Of a stretch of 11,138 nucleotides of DNA, positions 6,448 through 11,138 are shown piece after piece. The notes beneath the pieces were generated by a model. It was given only the letters and a program-made list of their open reading frames with translations, did not search any database and was not told the DNA's origin. The translations under genes were made by a program, and so were the position numbers. The stretch is from contig JAICJK010000039.1 in the NCBI GenBank assembly GCA_025928415.1, positions 1 to 11,138 on the forward strand, given 5' to 3'. Source of the stretch: Solirubrobacteraceae bacterium. Its GTDB lineage: Bacteria; Actinomycetota; Thermoleophilia; Solirubrobacterales; Solirubrobacteraceae. How positions within the stretch are numbered: position 1 is the first letter of the stretch; the number at the start of each line of letters is the position of its first letter.

Positions 6448-7224
6448 CTAGCGCTCCGCCCCGCCGGGGTCGGCCCCGGGGCTCGCCGCGCCCGCCTCGC
6501 CCGGCAGCCGGACCAGCGCCGCCCACGCGAGGTCGTGCCCGGCGCCGCCCTCCTGGGCCAGCAGCAGGCGCCCGGTGCTGAGCAGGTGGGCGCGCATCGC
6601 CGCGGCCGCCGCGGCCCCGTCGCGCGCGCGCAGCGCCGCCATGATCGCGTCGTGCTCGGCGAGGATCGCGCCGAGGTCGCGCGACCGGCCGACGGTCGAG
6701 GCGCCGCGGAAGCGCACGGCGTCCCTGAGCTGGGCGACGATCTCGGCCAGCCGGCGGTTGCCCGCCGCCAGCAGCAGCGCGGCGTGGAAGGCCCGGTCGT
6801 GGGCCATGAACGCCGCCTCGTCCCCGGCGCCCGCCGCGGCGCGCATCGCGGCGAGCTCGCGGCCGAGCGCGTCGAGCGCGGGCGCGTCGAGCAGCTCGCA
6901 GGCCCGCTCGGTCGCCGGCACCTCGAGCAGCAGCCGCAGCCCGAAGACCTCCTCGAGGTCGTGCAGCGAGGTCTCCAGCACGCGCACGCCGCGGTTGCGC
7001 TCGAAGCGGACCATCCCCTGGCGCTCGAGGACCAGCAGCGCCTCGCGTACGGGGGTCCGCGACACGCCGAACTGACCCGCCAGCAACGCCACGGAGTAGC
7101 GCTCCCCGGCGACGAGGCGGCCGTCGACGATCGCGTCGCGCACGGCCTCGGTGACGCGCGCGGCCAGCGTGGCGGGCGCCGTGTCGTCCAGCGGCGCGAG
7201 GGCGTCGTGCGGGGCGGCGGGCAC
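6448..7224 (-). CDS. GntR/FadR-type transcriptional regulator with FCD domain
   Basis: The protein has 258 residues. The winged helix spans about 18-84, with the hallmark FGVSRTPVREALLVLERQGM (52-71). The FCD ligand domain spans about 88-220. Its four usual metal-binding positions are present: D143 and H147 (HDRAFH), H191 (EHD) and H213 (RAHL). FCD regulators generally sense small organic acids with this metal. The gene diverges from the D-2-hydroxyglutarate dehydrogenase-like gene across 39 bases, so it probably controls that gene and itself. The effector may be D-2-hydroxyglutarate or a hydroxyacid, which is inference. The GTG start is supported by a TAGGGT box exactly 6 bases upstream, which would place the transcript start on the G of GTG (leaderless). 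trpS follows after 12 bases. Confidence 0.9.
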   Translation of the reverse strand: MPAAPHDALAPLDDTAPATLAARVTEAVRDAIVDGRLVAGERYSVALLAGQFGVSRTPVREALLVLERQGMVRFERNRGVRVLETSLHDLEEVFGLRLLLEVPATERACELLDAPALDALGRELAAMRAAAGAGDEAAFMAHDRAFHAALLLAAGNRRLAEIVAQLRDAVRFRGASTVGRSRDLGAILAEHDAIMAALRARDGAAAAAAMRAHLLSTGRLLLAQEGGAGHDLAWAALVRLPGEAGAASPGADPGGAER

Positions 7225-7230
7225 GCCGCC

Positions 7231-7236
7231 ACCCTA
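7231..7236 (-). promoter_or_regulatory. -10 box (TAGGGT) of a leaderless gntR transcript
   Basis: On the minus strand TAGGGT fits TANNNT, and the six bases GGCGGC separate it from the GTG at 7224. The first base of the start codon is therefore at the expected transcript start. The palindrome copy at 7250-7261 would lie at about -26 to -37 of this promoter, where a bound repressor could block it. No consensus -35 is seen. Confidence 0.45.
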
Positions 7237-7249
7237 CCCCGCCGCCCGG

Positions 7250-7261
7250 GTAGCATGCGAC
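7250..7261 (+). promoter_or_regulatory. GTAGCATGC-type site: candidate GntR operator and -10 box
   Basis: GTAGCATGCGAC differs at one base from the perfect palindrome GTAGCATGCTAC found at 8738-8749. It contains TAGCAT (7251-7256), a good TANNNT -10 box, and ends 2 bases before the in-frame GTG at 7264. It lies in the short divergent gap between gntR and the dehydrogenase gene. FadR-type GntR proteins bind palindromes of this size with GT and AC ends, so this is a likely operator. The match could instead reflect only a shared promoter element. Confidence 0.5.
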
Positions 7262-7263
7262 AT

Positions 7264-8655
7264 GTGACGGACGTGGACCACGCCGAGCTCGCCCGCGCGC
7301 TCGCCGCCGTGGTCGGCCCCGGCCACGTCCTCGCCGACGACGAGCTGCGCGCGCCGTTTCAGACCGACTGGACCGGGCGCTTCGCGGGCCGCGCGGCGCT
7401 GGTCGTGCGCCCCGCCGACGGCGGCGAGGTCGCCCGCGTGCTGGCCGCCTGCCACGAGCGCCGGATCCCCGTCGTCCCCCAGGGCGGCAACACGGGGCTG
7501 GTGGGCGCCTCCGTCCCGCGCGGCGGGGAGGTCGTCCTCAGCCTGGCCCGCCTCGGCGCGCTGGGCCCCGTCGACCGCGCGAGCGGCCAGGTCGAGGCCG
7601 GGGCCGGGGTGACGCTCGCCGCGCTGCAGTCCCACGCCCGCGACGCCGGCCTCGACGCCGGCGTGGACTTCGCCTCCCGCGACTCCGCGACGCTCGGGGG
7701 CCTCGTGGCCACCGACGCGGGCGGGACGCGCGCCGTGCGCCACGGGACCGTGCGCGCCCGGATCGCCGGGCTGGAGGCCATCCTGGCCGACGGGACCGTG
7801 ATCGACCGGCGCTCGGGATTGCTCAAGGACAACGCCGGCTACGCGCTGGACGCGCTGATCGCCGGCAGCGAGGGCACGCTGGCCGTGGTGACCCGCGTGC
7901 GCTGGCGCCTGGTGGCGCGGCTGCCCGCGCGCGTGGCGGCGCTCGTCCCGCTGGGCGGCCTGGGCGAGGCCGCGGCGCTGCTCGCGGTGCTGCGCCCGGC
8001 GCTGCCGTCCCTCGAGGCGATCGAGTTCCTGCTCGACGACGGGCTGCAGCTCGTGATGGACCACCTGCACCTGCCCGCGCCGGTGCCCGAGCGCCGCCCG
8101 GCCTACGTGCTCGTCGAGTGCGCGGCGCGCGCGGACCCGACCGAGGAGCTCGCCGAGGCGCTCGGCGCGGCGGGCGTGCAGGACGCGGTCGTGGCCACCG
8201 ACACCGCCGAGCGCGAGCGGCTGTGGCGCTTTCGCGAGGCCCACACCGAGGCGATCTCGGCCGCCGGCGTGCCCCACAAGCTCGACGTCGGCGTGCCGCT
8301 GGAGCGCCTGGCCGACTTCGCCGCGCGCGTCCCCGCCGCCGTGGCCGAGGCGGCGCCGGGCGCGCGGACGATCCTCTTCGGCCACCTGGGCGACGGCAAC
8401 GTCCACGTCAACGTGCTCGGCGCGCCGCCCGGCGACCCGGCGCTCGACGAGGCGGTGCTGCGGCTCGTGGCCGCCTGCGGCGGGACGATCAGCGCCGAGC
8501 ATGGCGTCGGCGTGGCCAAGGCCGCCTGGCTGCACCTGATCCGGCCCCCCGGCGAGCTGGCCGCGATGGCGGCGATCAAGGCCGCGCTGGACCCGCGCGG
8601 GATCCTCAACCCCGGCGCGGTGCTCGCGCCCGGCAGCGCTGCGCCGCCGCGCTGA
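7264..8655 (+). CDS. FAD-linked D-2-hydroxyglutarate dehydrogenase-like oxidase
   Basis: The 463-residue protein is a vanillyl-alcohol-oxidase-fold flavoprotein. The FAD domain holds PQGGNTGLVGASVP (72-85), TLGGLVATDAGG (143-154) and LLKDNAGYALDALIAGSEGT (186-205). The C-terminal FAD-oxidase domain holds GHLGDGNVHVNV (373-384) and ISAEHGVG (409-416). From memory of human D2HGDH, the substrate trio R386/T390/K401 has the same spacing here as R324/T328/K339; the zinc ligands correspond to H374, H381 and E412, with H413 as catalytic His. It should oxidise D-2-hydroxyglutarate to 2-oxoglutarate and pass electrons to a carrier not encoded here. D-lactate or glycolate oxidase is possible but fits less well. 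The start may be GTG 7264 or ATG 7255; I prefer GTG because the TAGCAT box overlaps the ATG. It is divergent from gntR and followed by the HOT gene. Confidence 0.85.
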   Translation: MTDVDHAELARALAAVVGPGHVLADDELRAPFQTDWTGRFAGRAALVVRPADGGEVARVLAACHERRIPVVPQGGNTGLVGASVPRGGEVVLSLARLGALGPVDRASGQVEAGAGVTLAALQSHARDAGLDAGVDFASRDSATLGGLVATDAGGTRAVRHGTVRARIAGLEAILADGTVIDRRSGLLKDNAGYALDALIAGSEGTLAVVTRVRWRLVARLPARVAALVPLGGLGEAAALLAVLRPALPSLEAIEFLLDDGLQLVMDHLHLPAPVPERRPAYVLVECAARADPTEELAEALGAAGVQDAVVATDTAERERLWRFREAHTEAISAAGVPHKLDVGVPLERLADFAARVPAAVAEAAPGARTILFGHLGDGNVHVNVLGAPPGDPALDEAVLRLVAACGGTISAEHGVGVAKAAWLHLIRPPGELAAMAAIKAALDPRGILNPGAVLAPGSAAPPR

Positions 8656-8689
8656 GCGGGATCGTGCGACCCGCGCCGAGCGGGGCCCG

Positions 8690-8705
8690 GGCCGGCGCAC
8701 CGGCC
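8690..8705 (+). other. short GC-only hairpin between the dehydrogenase and HOT genes
   Basis: GGCCGG and CCGGCC pair perfectly around the loop CGCA, 34 bases after the dehydrogenase stop. No U-run follows, so it is not a typical intrinsic terminator. It could attenuate read-through or protect a 3' end, but such short GC hairpins also arise by chance in DNA this rich in G and C. Confidence 0.25.
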
Positions 8706-8737
8706 GTCCCCGCCCGCGGGAGCCGACAACGTGGCCT

Positions 8738-8749
8738 GTAGCATGCTAC
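8738..8749 (+). promoter_or_regulatory. perfect 12-base palindrome GTAGCATGCTAC: candidate GntR operator and -10 box
   Basis: The palindrome contains TAGCAT (8739-8744), a TANNNT -10-like box, and ends 2 bases before the in-frame GTG at 8752. The one-mismatch copy at 7250-7261 stands at exactly the same distance from its own GTG. It probably marks a separate, regulated and leaderless promoter for the HOT gene, and suggests that the GntR protein controls both enzyme genes. Binding is inferred and not shown. Confidence 0.55.
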
Positions 8750-8751
8750 GG

Positions 8752-10047
8752 GTGAGCGAGACCCCGGCGCGCCCTGCCCACGAGACCGTGTTCACGGTCG
8801 AGGCGACACCGCTGAAGTTCGGGCCCGGGGCGTCCGCCGAGGCGGGCTGGGAGCTCGCGCGGCTGGGCGCGCGGCGCGCGATGGTGTGCTCGGACCCGGA
8901 GGTCCGGCGGCTGGGCGTCACCGAGCGGATCACCGCCCAGCTCGACGCCGAGGGCATCGCCTTCGAGGTCTACGACGACATCCGCGTGGAGCCCAGCGAC
9001 GAGTCGTTCGCCACCGCGGCGGCGTTCGCCCGCGAGGGCGCCTTCGACGCCTTCGTCTCGATCGGCGGCGGCTCGACGATCGACACCGCCAAGGTCGCCA
9101 ACCTGATCTCGACGCACGGCGGCGAGGTCGTCGACTACGTCAACGCGCCCGTCGGCGGCGGCCGCAAGCCCGCCGGCCCGCTCAAGCCGCACCTGGCGAT
9201 CCCGACGACCTCGGGCTCGGGGTCGGAGGCGACGACGGTCGCCGTGCTCGACGTCCGATCGCAGGGGGTCAAGAGCGGGATCTCGCACCGCTTCCTGCGC
9301 GCCTCGCAGGCGATCGTCGACCCGGAGCTGACCCGCACGCTGGCCGCCGAGGTCACCTCGTCGGCGGGACTCGACGTGATCTGCCACGCGGCCGAGTCGT
9401 TCCTGGCGCGGCCGTTTCAGACCCGCGAGCGCCCCGCCTCCCCCGGCGACCGCCCGCCCTACCAGGGCTCCAACCCGGTCGCCGACCTGTGGTCCTCGCG
9501 GGCGCTGGAGGACGGCGGGCGCTTCCTGCGCCGGGCGGTGGCCGACCGCGACGACGTCGAGGCGCGCGGGCGGATGATGCTGTGCGCGAGCCTGGCCGGG
9601 ATCGGCTTCGGCTCGGCCGGCGTCCACATCCCCCACGCCTGCGCCTATCCGATCGCCACCGGGACCCACGCCTACCAGCCCGCCGGCTACCCGGACGACC
9701 ACCCGTTCGTCCCCCACGGGCACTCGGTGATCGTGACGTCCCCGGCCGCCTTCCGGTTCACCTACGAGGCGGCGCCCGAGCGCCACATCCACGTCGCCGA
9801 GCTGCTGGCCGGCCGCCCGATCGGAGCCGGCGAGCGGGGCCCGGAGACGCTGCCGCGCGTGCTGTCGGAGCTGATGCGCGACGTCGGCGCGCCGAGCGGC
9901 CTGCGCGAGCTCGGCTACGAGGAGGACGACATCCCGGCGCTCGTGCAGGGCGCGCTGAAGCAGCAGCGCCTGCTCGTCCTCGCGCCGCGCGAGCCGAGCG
10001 CCACCGACCTCGAGCGCATCATGCGCGAGTCGCTGGAGAACTGGTAG
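8752..10047 (+). CDS. hydroxyacid-oxoacid transhydrogenase (iron-type alcohol dehydrogenase, ADHFE1/HOT-like)
   Basis: The 431-residue protein belongs to the iron-containing alcohol dehydrogenases. The nucleotide-binding half has SIGGGSTIDTAK (103-114) and IPTTSGSGSEAT (150-161). The metal ligands known from FucO map to D208, H212, H295 and H322. Several stretches follow human ADHFE1 rather than other members: VYDDIRVEP (73-81), EGAFDAFV (95-102), YQGSNPVADLW (237-247), GIGFGSAGVHIPHACAYPI (283-301) and DDHPFVPHGHSV (315-326), including an extra segment between the last two His ligands. HOT transfers reducing equivalents from 4-hydroxybutyrate to 2-oxoglutarate, giving succinate semialdehyde and D-2-hydroxyglutarate, using tightly held nicotinamide cofactor. 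The neighbouring D-2-hydroxyglutarate dehydrogenase supports this assignment. In-frame starts GTG 8731 and ATG 8743 also exist; GTG 8752 is preferred because the palindrome and -10-like box lie immediately before it. Confidence 0.87.
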   Translation: MSETPARPAHETVFTVEATPLKFGPGASAEAGWELARLGARRAMVCSDPEVRRLGVTERITAQLDAEGIAFEVYDDIRVEPSDESFATAAAFAREGAFDAFVSIGGGSTIDTAKVANLISTHGGEVVDYVNAPVGGGRKPAGPLKPHLAIPTTSGSGSEATTVAVLDVRSQGVKSGISHRFLRASQAIVDPELTRTLAAEVTSSAGLDVICHAAESFLARPFQTRERPASPGDRPPYQGSNPVADLWSSRALEDGGRFLRRAVADRDDVEARGRMMLCASLAGIGFGSAGVHIPHACAYPIATGTHAYQPAGYPDDHPFVPHGHSVIVTSPAAFRFTYEAAPERHIHVAELLAGRPIGAGERGPETLPRVLSELMRDVGAPSGLRELGYEEDDIPALVQGALKQQRLLVLAPREPSATDLERIMRESLENW

Positions 10048-10073
10048 CCGGCCGGGCCCGAGCCGCCTGGCAG

Positions 10074-11138
10074 GTGCGGTTCGGGGGCCTGCCGCGAGCG
10101 TTCTGGCCGGTCTGGGGCGGCGCGCTCGTCAATCGCGCGGGCGGGTTCGTCGAGCCGTTCCTCGTCCTCTACTTCGCGCACCGCGGGGTCGGCACGACGA
10201 CGATCGGGCTGCTGGCCGCGCTGACCGGGGTCGGCTCGCTGATCTCCCAGCCCGTCGGCGGCATCCTGGCCGACCGCATCGGGCGCCGGGAGACGATCGC
10301 GCTGGGGATGGCCGGCGCAGCGGCTTCCTTCGTCCTGCTCGGCCTCGCCCGGCCGCTCTGGCTGCTGGCCGTGGCCGCCGTCCTCGCCGGGGGCTTCGTC
10401 GACCTCTACCGGCCCGCGTCCAGCGCGCTGGTCGCCGACATCGTCCACCCGGCGGACCGCCCGCGCGCCTACGCCCTGCAGTTCTGGGTCGTCAACGCCG
10501 GCTTCGCGCTGGCTGCGGGGCTGGCCGGCGTGCTGGCCGAGGCGGGCTACGGGCTGCTGTTCGCCTTCGACGGGCTGACCTGCCTGGCCAGCGCCGCGAT
10601 CGTCTGGCGCGACACGGCCGGCGTGCCGCGGCCGCCGCGGGCCGCGGGCGACCGCGGCGGCCTGGGGCCCGCCTTCGGCGACCGGGTGCTGCTCGCCTTC
10701 GTCGGCCTCACCGCCGCCGGCGCCTGCGTGTACTTCCAGGCCTACTCGACGCTCGCGCTGGCGATGCGCGCCGACGGGCTCGCGCCGTCGACCTACGGCG
10801 CGACCGTGGCGCTCAACGGCACGATGATCGTCCTCGTGCAGCCGATCGTCGCGCCGTGGCTGCTGCGCCGCCGGCGCGTCGCGGTGCTCGCGTCGGGCCA
10901 GGCGCTCATCGGCCTCGGCTTCGGGCTGGAGGGGCTGGTCGCGTCGTACGCCGGCTACGCGCTGCCCGTGCTGGTGTGGACCGCGGGCGAGATCGGCTTC
11001 CAGGCGCTCGCCGGCGCCGTCGTCGCCGACCTCGCGCCGCGCGCGCTGCGCGGCCGCTACCAGGGCGTCTACGGCCTGAGCTTCGGGGCGGCCGGCGCCG
11101 TCGCGCCGGTCGCGGGCGCGGCGGTGCTCGCCGGGCCC
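10074..11138 (+). CDS. MFS transporter, 3' end outside the window (partial)
   Basis: The frame stays open for 355 codons to the window edge. Many hydrophobic helices alternate with short loops, and the loop after helix 2 holds a perfect MFS motif A, GGILADRIGRR (62-72). The RPASSALVADIV stretch (113-124) and overall pattern recall the DHA1 drug:H+ antiporter branch (MdtH/MdtG type), so export of a small molecule is at least as likely as substrate uptake. The candidate GTG start lies 26 bases after the HOT stop; in-frame GTA, CAG and GCC codons before it are not starts. The short gap suggests co-transcription with HOT. Its substrate cannot be told; the setting invites a hydroxyacid, but this is not supported by residues. 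Confidence 0.85.
   Translation, partial: MRFGGLPRAFWPVWGGALVNRAGGFVEPFLVLYFAHRGVGTTTIGLLAALTGVGSLISQPVGGILADRIGRRETIALGMAGAAASFVLLGLARPLWLLAVAAVLAGGFVDLYRPASSALVADIVHPADRPRAYALQFWVVNAGFALAAGLAGVLAEAGYGLLFAFDGLTCLASAAIVWRDTAGVPRPPRAAGDRGGLGPAFGDRVLLAFVGLTAAGACVYFQAYSTLALAMRADGLAPSTYGATVALNGTMIVLVQPIVAPWLLRRRRVAVLASGQALIGLGFGLEGLVASYAGYALPVLVWTAGEIGFQALAGAVVADLAPRALRGRYQGVYGLSFGAAGAVAPVAGAAVLAGP

Follow-up and report, generated by a model that had tools for sequence, protein, structure and literature searches.

A candidate D-2-hydroxyglutarate shuttle in a Solirubrobacteraceae genome: adjacent genes of HOT and D-2-hydroxyglutarate dehydrogenase type beside a GntR/FCD regulator gene

Introduction

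The chemistry of hydroxyacid-oxoacid transhydrogenase (HOT) is already known from mammals (PMC5125639), and in Caenorhabditis elegans HPHD-1 and DHGD-1 connect it with D-2-hydroxyglutarate dehydrogenase (D2HGDH), as HOT makes D-2-hydroxyglutarate during the oxidation of 3-hydroxypropionate and D2HGDH recycles it (PMC10096224). HOT has also been found to rise in Aspergillus making 3-hydroxypropionate (PMC10061894). In the bacterial literature, as far as the sources used here cover it, D-2-hydroxyglutarate figures mainly as a by-product, for example of serine synthesis, that needs clean-up. In this study, we analyzed a stretch of 11,138 bases from a soil actinobacterium of the Solirubrobacteraceae (contig JAICJK010000039.1 of assembly GCA_025928415.1; the window in the following), in which adjacent genes for a D2HGDH-type flavoprotein and a HOT-type iron-containing dehydrogenase lie beside a divergent gene for a GntR/FCD-family regulator.

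For gamma-butyrolactone, the blcABC/attKLM locus of Agrobacterium encodes a lactonase, an iron dehydrogenase and succinate semialdehyde dehydrogenase (SSADH); its regulator is of the IclR type, its 4-hydroxybutyrate dehydrogenase is an ordinary one, and a D2HGDH is not known to be part of it. In Achromobacter denitrificans, the GntR-family regulator DhdR is encoded in one operon with d2hgdh and binds GTTATCAGATAAC (PMC8651671). The sections of that paper used here give GntR, ETF, SerA, CdaR, LldP and GlcF as the commonest neighbors of bacterial d2hgdh genes and do not name HOT. Another D2HGDH, YdiJ of E. coli and Pantoea, carries an additional GlpC domain (PMC9504171). A bacterial HOT-D2HGDH locus was unreported in the titles and abstract openings of the open-access literature searched, most subscription journals lying outside that coverage.

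Results

Identity of the flavoprotein and the iron-containing dehydrogenase

Both enzyme genes were identified by features diagnostic of their subfamilies, their pairing recurs in other genomes, and operator-like sites are present at both gene starts. We consider a D-2-hydroxyglutarate shuttle made up of both enzymes probable, with 4-hydroxybutyrate as the most likely substrate; substrate, acceptor, effector, operator binding and repression are predictions.

The flavoprotein gene (7255..8655, plus strand, starting with ATG at 7255 or GTG at 7264) encodes FAD_binding_4 and FAD-oxidase_C domains. Its best solved relative is the mitochondrial D2HGDH 6lpn (5.1e-84), compared to 5.9e-48 for the D-lactate dehydrogenase 8jdc. 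We take 6lpn to be human D2HGDH, and its residues fit the published human structure. For that structure nine substrate-site residues are listed (PMC7801405), with R386, H434, H441, E475 and H476 serving zinc binding, the C1-carboxyl group and catalysis, while the C5 carboxyl group is held by Thr390, Lys401, Tyr432 and Asn443. Of the latter, K401 and N443 are called strictly conserved, and the C5-carboxyl residues are described there as replaced in GlcD and D-lactate dehydrogenases, except for yeast DLD2 and DLD3. The window flavoprotein has kept eight of the nine substrate-site residues, including the equivalents of Lys401 and Asn443, and its C5-carboxyl site reads T, K, F, N (three of four). 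All five zinc, C1-carboxyl and catalytic residues are present as well; these are also common to D-lactate dehydrogenases and therefore not specific for D2HGDH.

Lys401 and Asn443 are both kept in all eight D2HGDH orthologues adjacent to a HOT gene, the window included, and in 3/3 orthologues (51-58% identity) without an adjoining HOT. Among 22 paralogues sampled from relatives, namely those among 30 loci retained from a longer list of matches, Lys401 occurs in none (Ser in 19, Ala in two, Ile in one) and Asn443 in one; a homologue in genome G059 (44%) has kept Lys401 and not Asn443. The window flavoprotein misses the GlcD equivalog cut-off (229.5 vs 567.9 bits). The reading of the FAD enzyme as an ordinary D-lactate or glycolate dehydrogenase was rejected because, unlike the 22 sampled paralogues, it carries both Lys401 and Asn443. 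Its active site thus supports a D2HGDH-type flavoprotein, whose substrate preference is predicted.

The iron-containing dehydrogenase (8743..10047, plus strand, ATG at 8743 or GTG at 8752) has the domains Fe-ADH (PF00465, 144.5 bits, cut-off 31.3) and ADH_Fe_C. In the published survey, as far as used here, every HOT protein (subfamily cd08190) has two inserts, one of 19 residues between helices 5 and 6 and one of 13 residues between helices 8 and 9 (PMC5125639). In our alignment the first insert appears as 18 columns (window residues 226-243), which are filled in more than 70% of 40 HOT rows vs less than 30% of 13 other iron-containing alcohol dehydrogenases (Fe-ADHs). The second comprises 13 columns (residues 310-322) and is missing from all 13 other Fe-ADHs; a distant haloarchaeal protein (L150) is the only printed HOT row without it. 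D211, H215, H298, H325, G108-G110 and D114 are invariant among the HOT rows covering those positions, and we take these residues to be the Fe-ADH metal ligands and the glycine-rich nucleotide motif.

In 101 genomes, the own genome included, HOT matches were found at 18 places in 17 genomes, comprising the window itself (100%) and 17 matches with 65-74% identity. The remaining matches to the HOT query formed a second set with 26-41% identity. Among named genomes, the closest HOTs come from Solirubrobacterales metagenome-assembled genomes, and the nearest plasmid homologues carry the RefSeq name hydroxyacid-oxoacid transhydrogenase. Membership of the iron enzyme in the HOT subfamily is thus supported, with the published insert description and the RefSeq names, rather than an alignment to human ADHFE1, as the basis. 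At the level of sequence, the resemblance of the two enzymes to HOT and D2HGDH that a preliminary description of this DNA had noticed is therefore borne out, by both subfamily inserts and by the active-site residues, respectively.

Recurrence of the gene pair

After merging identical HOT translations, 82 distinct HOT loci were available, for which neighbors were called by scripted limits on identity to the query and on distance. From a set of 21 loci, L080, L092 and L096 (same contigs as L033, L046 and L039) as well as L099 and L100 (28-29%, not HOT) were dropped; the plasmid sample comprised six of 1049 matching records and the phylum sample 396 genomes from a larger group. Since some contigs end near HOT, the neighbor counts are lower bounds. 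A D2HGDH gene adjoins HOT in eight loci (window, L034, L035, L036, L082, L084, L093, L094), and in six others (L145, L147, L152, L153, L158, L159) the neighbor is a protein of YdiJ architecture with FAD and GlpC domains. AttM-like lactonase genes adjoin HOT in 28/82 loci and hotdog thioesterase genes in 9/82, an SSADH-like gene (at least 30% identity, within 5.5 kb) is found near HOT in 9/82, and in 34/82 loci none of D2HGDH, YdiJ, AttM or thioesterase adjoins. The preliminary description had named an adjacency unique to this genome as a ground for refutation; as the pairing recurs elsewhere, this is not the case. Among the matches listed, HOT occurs together with a D2HGDH orthologue (at least 50% identity) in 5/101 genomes, the genes being adjacent in G000 (the source genome), G028, G037 and G045. 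In a tree of the 75 HOT sequences that were long enough (L093 and L152 are among those excluded), the D2HGDH label requires five changes (at least four on the basis of well-supported branches) and that of YdiJ three, hence partners appear to have been gained or lost several times.

In six loci, from five genus-mates and one relative, a hotdog thioesterase gene shares a few bases with HOT, either at its start (L038, L042, L043, L044) or at its end (L045, L049). Such a thioesterase could release a hydroxyacid from CoA.

Candidate control sites at both gene starts

Provided that the GTG starts are used, both enzyme genes begin with TAGCAT, seven bases and GTG. A search for TAGCAT-N7-(A/G)TG on both strands of the window returned only the D2HGDH start (7251) and the HOT start (8739). 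The first candidate operator with its -10-like promoter (TAGCATG-CGA-CATGTGA, 7251..7267, plus strand) overlaps the start of the D2HGDH gene; the second, at the HOT start (8732..8755, plus strand), contains the palindrome GTAGCATGCTAC at 8738-8749. Allowing up to three mismatches, the 17-base pattern of the first site has three matches in the window, itself by construction and two overlapping ones at the HOT start, a number reached by none of 200 shuffles. The pattern RGCATGNNNCATGY, chosen after the sites had been seen, occurs once in the 3.25 Mb of the own genome, at the D2HGDH start, and its reversed control does not occur.

The palindrome GTAGCATGCTAC recurs in L158, where it precedes HOT, and in L036, where it lies at the start of D2HGDH. 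A GCATG-type dyad was found in all seven HOT loci holding the GntR gene. In 93 loci, a set in which some contigs are present twice and four stretches lack HOT, the strict motif GCATGN3CATGC has seven matches, whereas ten resamples of the whole set gave 0-3 (mean 0.7). Six of the seven are located within GntR-bearing loci: those of L034, L036 and L084 at HOT and D2HGDH or between them, and three on a Rhodococcus plasmid around the GntR gene, at least 2 kb from HOT and with a transposase gene intervening. The seventh lies inside a flavoprotein gene of L085. Of the other HOT loci with GntR, the window and L040 carry sites with one mismatch and L158 the palindrome. As a side observation, the transposase gene between GntR/operator and HOT on this plasmid (L147, Rhodococcus ruber YYL pYYL1.1, 7294-9976) belongs to the IS1380 family.

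The distance of seven bases between a -10-like TAGCAT and the start codon suggests that transcripts are leaderless and that the candidate operator lies on the promoter, which would imply repression. A scan for sigma-70 promoters and terminators gave no match. The intergenic regions between HOT and D2HGDH of L082 and L093 (order D2HGDH-HOT-AttM, no GntR seen nearby) were noted by eye to hold a dyad of another kind, GGGTA...TACCC, which hints at control by some other regulator.

The GntR/FCD regulator

The regulator gene (6448..7224, minus strand, 258 aa) has a GntR winged helix (PF00392, 55.3 bits, cut-off 27) and an FCD domain (PF07729, 92.5 bits, cut-off 24.3), which places it in this class. 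In an alignment of 11 homologues, a D...H/H/H pattern is visible, the last His missing only in the Rhodococcus copy, whose C-terminus fails to align; we take this pattern to be that of the FCD metal ligands. The earlier claim of a divergent GntR/FCD gene with four metal ligands accordingly holds. GntR matches (57-66% identity, E <= 1e-45) were obtained in 6/100 relatives, and the gene is present in 7/82 distinct HOT loci, four of them (window, L034, L036, L084) among the eight with D2HGDH.

The preliminary description had further pointed to DhdR as a known GntR repressor responsive to D-2-hydroxyglutarate. The DhdR site GTTATCAGATAAC has no match in the window at up to three mismatches, and DhdR-type control was rejected on account of its absence, the two systems being set apart by the site and the divergent orientation of the gene and not by a protein comparison.

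Close GntR homologues were also found in HOT-less clusters, namely L213, L214 and L215 (57-62%) and L216, a second copy in G045 (55%). In L214, for which models were run, the cluster includes a thiamine-diphosphate enzyme, a class-III aminotransferase, a GlcD-like flavoprotein and an aldehyde dehydrogenase. By eye, the other three resemble it in the first two of these, with aldehyde dehydrogenases in some. A GlcD-like flavoprotein gene adjoins GntR in three of the four clusters (not in L216), and three hold a matching dyad, L215 having only a TAGCATG half site.

Neighboring genes and the likely substrate

The preliminary description had proposed 4-hydroxybutyrate as substrate. Lactonase and SSADH neighbors of HOT in relatives support this; within the window locus, neither gene was seen. 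The lactonase of L084 (Candidatus Solirubrobacter pratensis, which combines D2HGDH, HOT, lactonase and GntR genes), the sole copy run against a curated model, passes the AttM model NF045700 (408.7 bits, cut-off 390), and the copy of Deinococcus wulumuqiensis carries the RefSeq name attM. In L040, HOT, an AttM-like gene, GntR and an SSADH-like gene (TIGR01780, 509 bits, under the cut-off of 646) follow in a row on one strand, an order that would fit a route from the lactone via 4-hydroxybutyrate and succinate semialdehyde to succinate. On two actinobacterial plasmids, an annotated SSADH gene lies less than 4 kb from HOT on the opposite strand. The plasmid of Rhodococcus ruber YYL carries HOT, a YdiJ-architecture gene, a GntR homologue (57%) and genes of a multicomponent monooxygenase; this strain degrades tetrahydrofuran, for which the proposed pathways run via 4-hydroxybutyrate (PMC7464125). 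In two Rubrobacteraceae loci (L087, L098), genes named by eye as PhaC/PhaE-like polyester synthase genes were noticed near HOT, which may link HOT to 4-hydroxybutyrate-containing polymers.

For the own genome, an SSADH-like gene absent from the window, as had been noted, was found on another contig, with scores under the cut-offs (TIGR01780, 588.2 of 646.35 bits; NADP-dependent NF006915, 372 of 730). ETF genes are present on other contigs as well.

Gene layout and further features of the window

The window is an entire contig (G000:C183) of a genome of 3.25 Mb in 669 contigs (87.5% complete), and the sequence past 11138 is therefore unreadable. In order, it contains trpS, the divergent GntR/FCD gene, the FAD dehydrogenase gene, the iron-containing dehydrogenase gene and a truncated MFS gene up to the contig end. 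The gene descriptions and coordinates given earlier for 6448-10047 were confirmed by open reading frames and Pfam, with all Pfam assignments of the GntR, FAD and iron enzymes above the gathering score. The MFS transporter gene (10050..11138, plus strand, PF07690 135.3 bits), cut by the contig end, directly follows HOT; its best NCBIfam model, below cut-off, is a multidrug-resistance superfamily model, and the protein is no obvious organic-acid carrier. Because of this multidrug model the gene was given no weight, and its membership in the module is uncertain. An Rfam search returned no match. A tRNA-Arg (98 bases, anticodon gcg) called by ARAGORN at 7947-8044 (plus strand), within the D2HGDH coding sequence, is probably false.

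Discussion

In the shuttle that we regard as probable, HOT would use bound nicotinamide to transfer a hydride to 2-oxoglutarate, the donor being a short omega-hydroxyacid and most likely 4-hydroxybutyrate; the products would be D-2-hydroxyglutarate and succinate semialdehyde. Oxidation of D-2-hydroxyglutarate by the flavoprotein would regenerate 2-oxoglutarate, with a respiratory carrier (probably ETF) taking up the electrons, while an SSADH-like enzyme encoded elsewhere would take succinate semialdehyde to succinate. The GntR/FCD protein would bind the GCATG-type dyads over both start sites and repress until a hydroxyacid or oxoacid effector is present.

The same shuttle might instead serve 3-hydroxypropionate, oxidized by HOT to malonate semialdehyde while D2HGDH recycles D-2-hydroxyglutarate, as is known for the enzyme pair with HPHD-1 in the C. 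elegans propionate shunt (PMC10096224); the thioesterase gene overlapping HOT in genus-mates could then free the hydroxyacid from CoA. We think this unlikely, as the lactonase and SSADH neighbors of HOT in relatives favor 4-hydroxybutyrate, and no gene for 3-hydroxypropionate was recognized among the neighbors inspected, for which no dedicated search was run. About as unlikely, in our judgment, is an absence of any coupling, with a repair D2HGDH or general D-2-hydroxyacid dehydrogenase and an ordinary NAD-dependent iron enzyme sharing a 2-hydroxyacid-sensing regulator. It would agree with GntR and similar sites occurring with a GlcD-like flavoprotein and no HOT, and with 74 of the 82 HOT loci lacking this D2HGDH as a neighbor, but against it stand the HOT-specific inserts, the operator-like sites at both gene starts and the repeated finding of HOT next to this D2HGDH and, in other loci, next to a YdiJ-architecture flavoprotein. 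A juxtaposition by chance or recent transfer in one genome, with no selected joint function here, is very improbable, since the two gene starts carry matching sites and L034, L036 and L084 have the same three genes. It draws on the absence of the pairing in genus-mates and on the long end branch (0.38) of the window HOT, which the tree places together with two HOTs from Deinococcus plasmids (91/98, not starred), so that horizontal transfer is allowed.

This placement in the tree is one of several points that weigh against the proposed 4-hydroxybutyrate shuttle. In the flavoprotein the equivalent of Tyr432 is Phe, and the window HOT reaches the cut-off of none of the 16 NCBIfam families matched, among which there is no HOT model. 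In 68/82 HOT loci, some of them cut by contig ends, neither dehydrogenase adjoins; the two genes are co-directional only in the window and head to head in the other seven loci, and in G052 they lie on different contigs. In the genus-mates with HOT (G001, G003, G004, G006, G007) a thioesterase adjoins it, and a D2HGDH orthologue was not found in these five among the matches listed. The examined DNA of L035, L082, L093 and L094, half of the D2HGDH-HOT loci, holds no GntR gene, and as GntR and similar sites also occur in the HOT-less clusters, the effector need not be 4-hydroxybutyrate; it may be a general hydroxyacid or oxoacid. With one query, no lactonase was found in the 87.5% complete own genome (best match 25% over part). 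Finally, the YdiJ-architecture plasmid proteins score 442 and 454 bits (YdiJ cut-off 1350), and these neighbors have Trp at the Lys401 and Arg at the Asn443 position, which makes D2HGDH activity of theirs a guess. Taken as a whole, the interpretation given in the preliminary description is partly supported.

More tentatively, and with somewhat less than even confidence, we propose a regulated bacterial D-2-hydroxyglutarate shuttle dedicated to the oxidation of gamma-butyrolactone/4-hydroxybutyrate, which would have been assembled more than once from HOT and either of two kinds of D2HGDH and which, in several lineages, would be controlled by a single GntR/FCD subfamily through a GCATG-N3-CATGC operator. 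If this is true, soil actinobacteria, tetrahydrofuran degraders among them, would have the 'oncometabolite' D-2-hydroxyglutarate as an obligatory intermediate of catabolism, and an oxidation step would be supplied for tetrahydrofuran and gamma-butyrolactone breakdown. A purposeful make-and-remove pair would give D-2-hydroxyglutarate the role of a hydride carrier and suggest why prokaryotes have HOT. The candidate operator provides a handle on the effector and possibly on a new hydroxyacid sensor.

Comparison with known systems

Of the three functions of the Blc/Att locus (lactonase, 4-hydroxybutyrate oxidation and SSADH), the window lacks lactonase and SSADH, while L040 has all three with the SSADH-like gene under cut-off; the Blc/Att lactonase family is shared by the relative L084 (AttM). 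On the plasmids of Rhodococcus ruber YYL and Mycobacterium dioxanotrophicus, HOT is directly followed by the YdiJ-architecture flavoprotein. R. ruber shares the GntR homologue with the window and has perfect GCATGN3CATGC sites near it, but the second enzyme of both plasmids is of another kind, below the YdiJ cut-off and without Lys401/Asn443. The DhdR operon, as far as described in the source used, and the window both have a GntR-family regulator beside D2HGDH, the genes being divergent only in the window. Closest in function are HPHD-1 and DHGD-1, the ADHFE1 and D2HGDH orthologues of C. elegans, which act as one oxidation step as proposed here (PMC10096224). There, the genes are co-expressed in a eukaryote and the substrate is 3-hydroxypropionate, whereas the window has adjacent bacterial genes, a local regulator and probably 4-hydroxybutyrate. 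The preliminary description knew of no account of both enzymes coupled in one bacterial locus; the couple itself is known from animals, and only the bacterial locus may be new.

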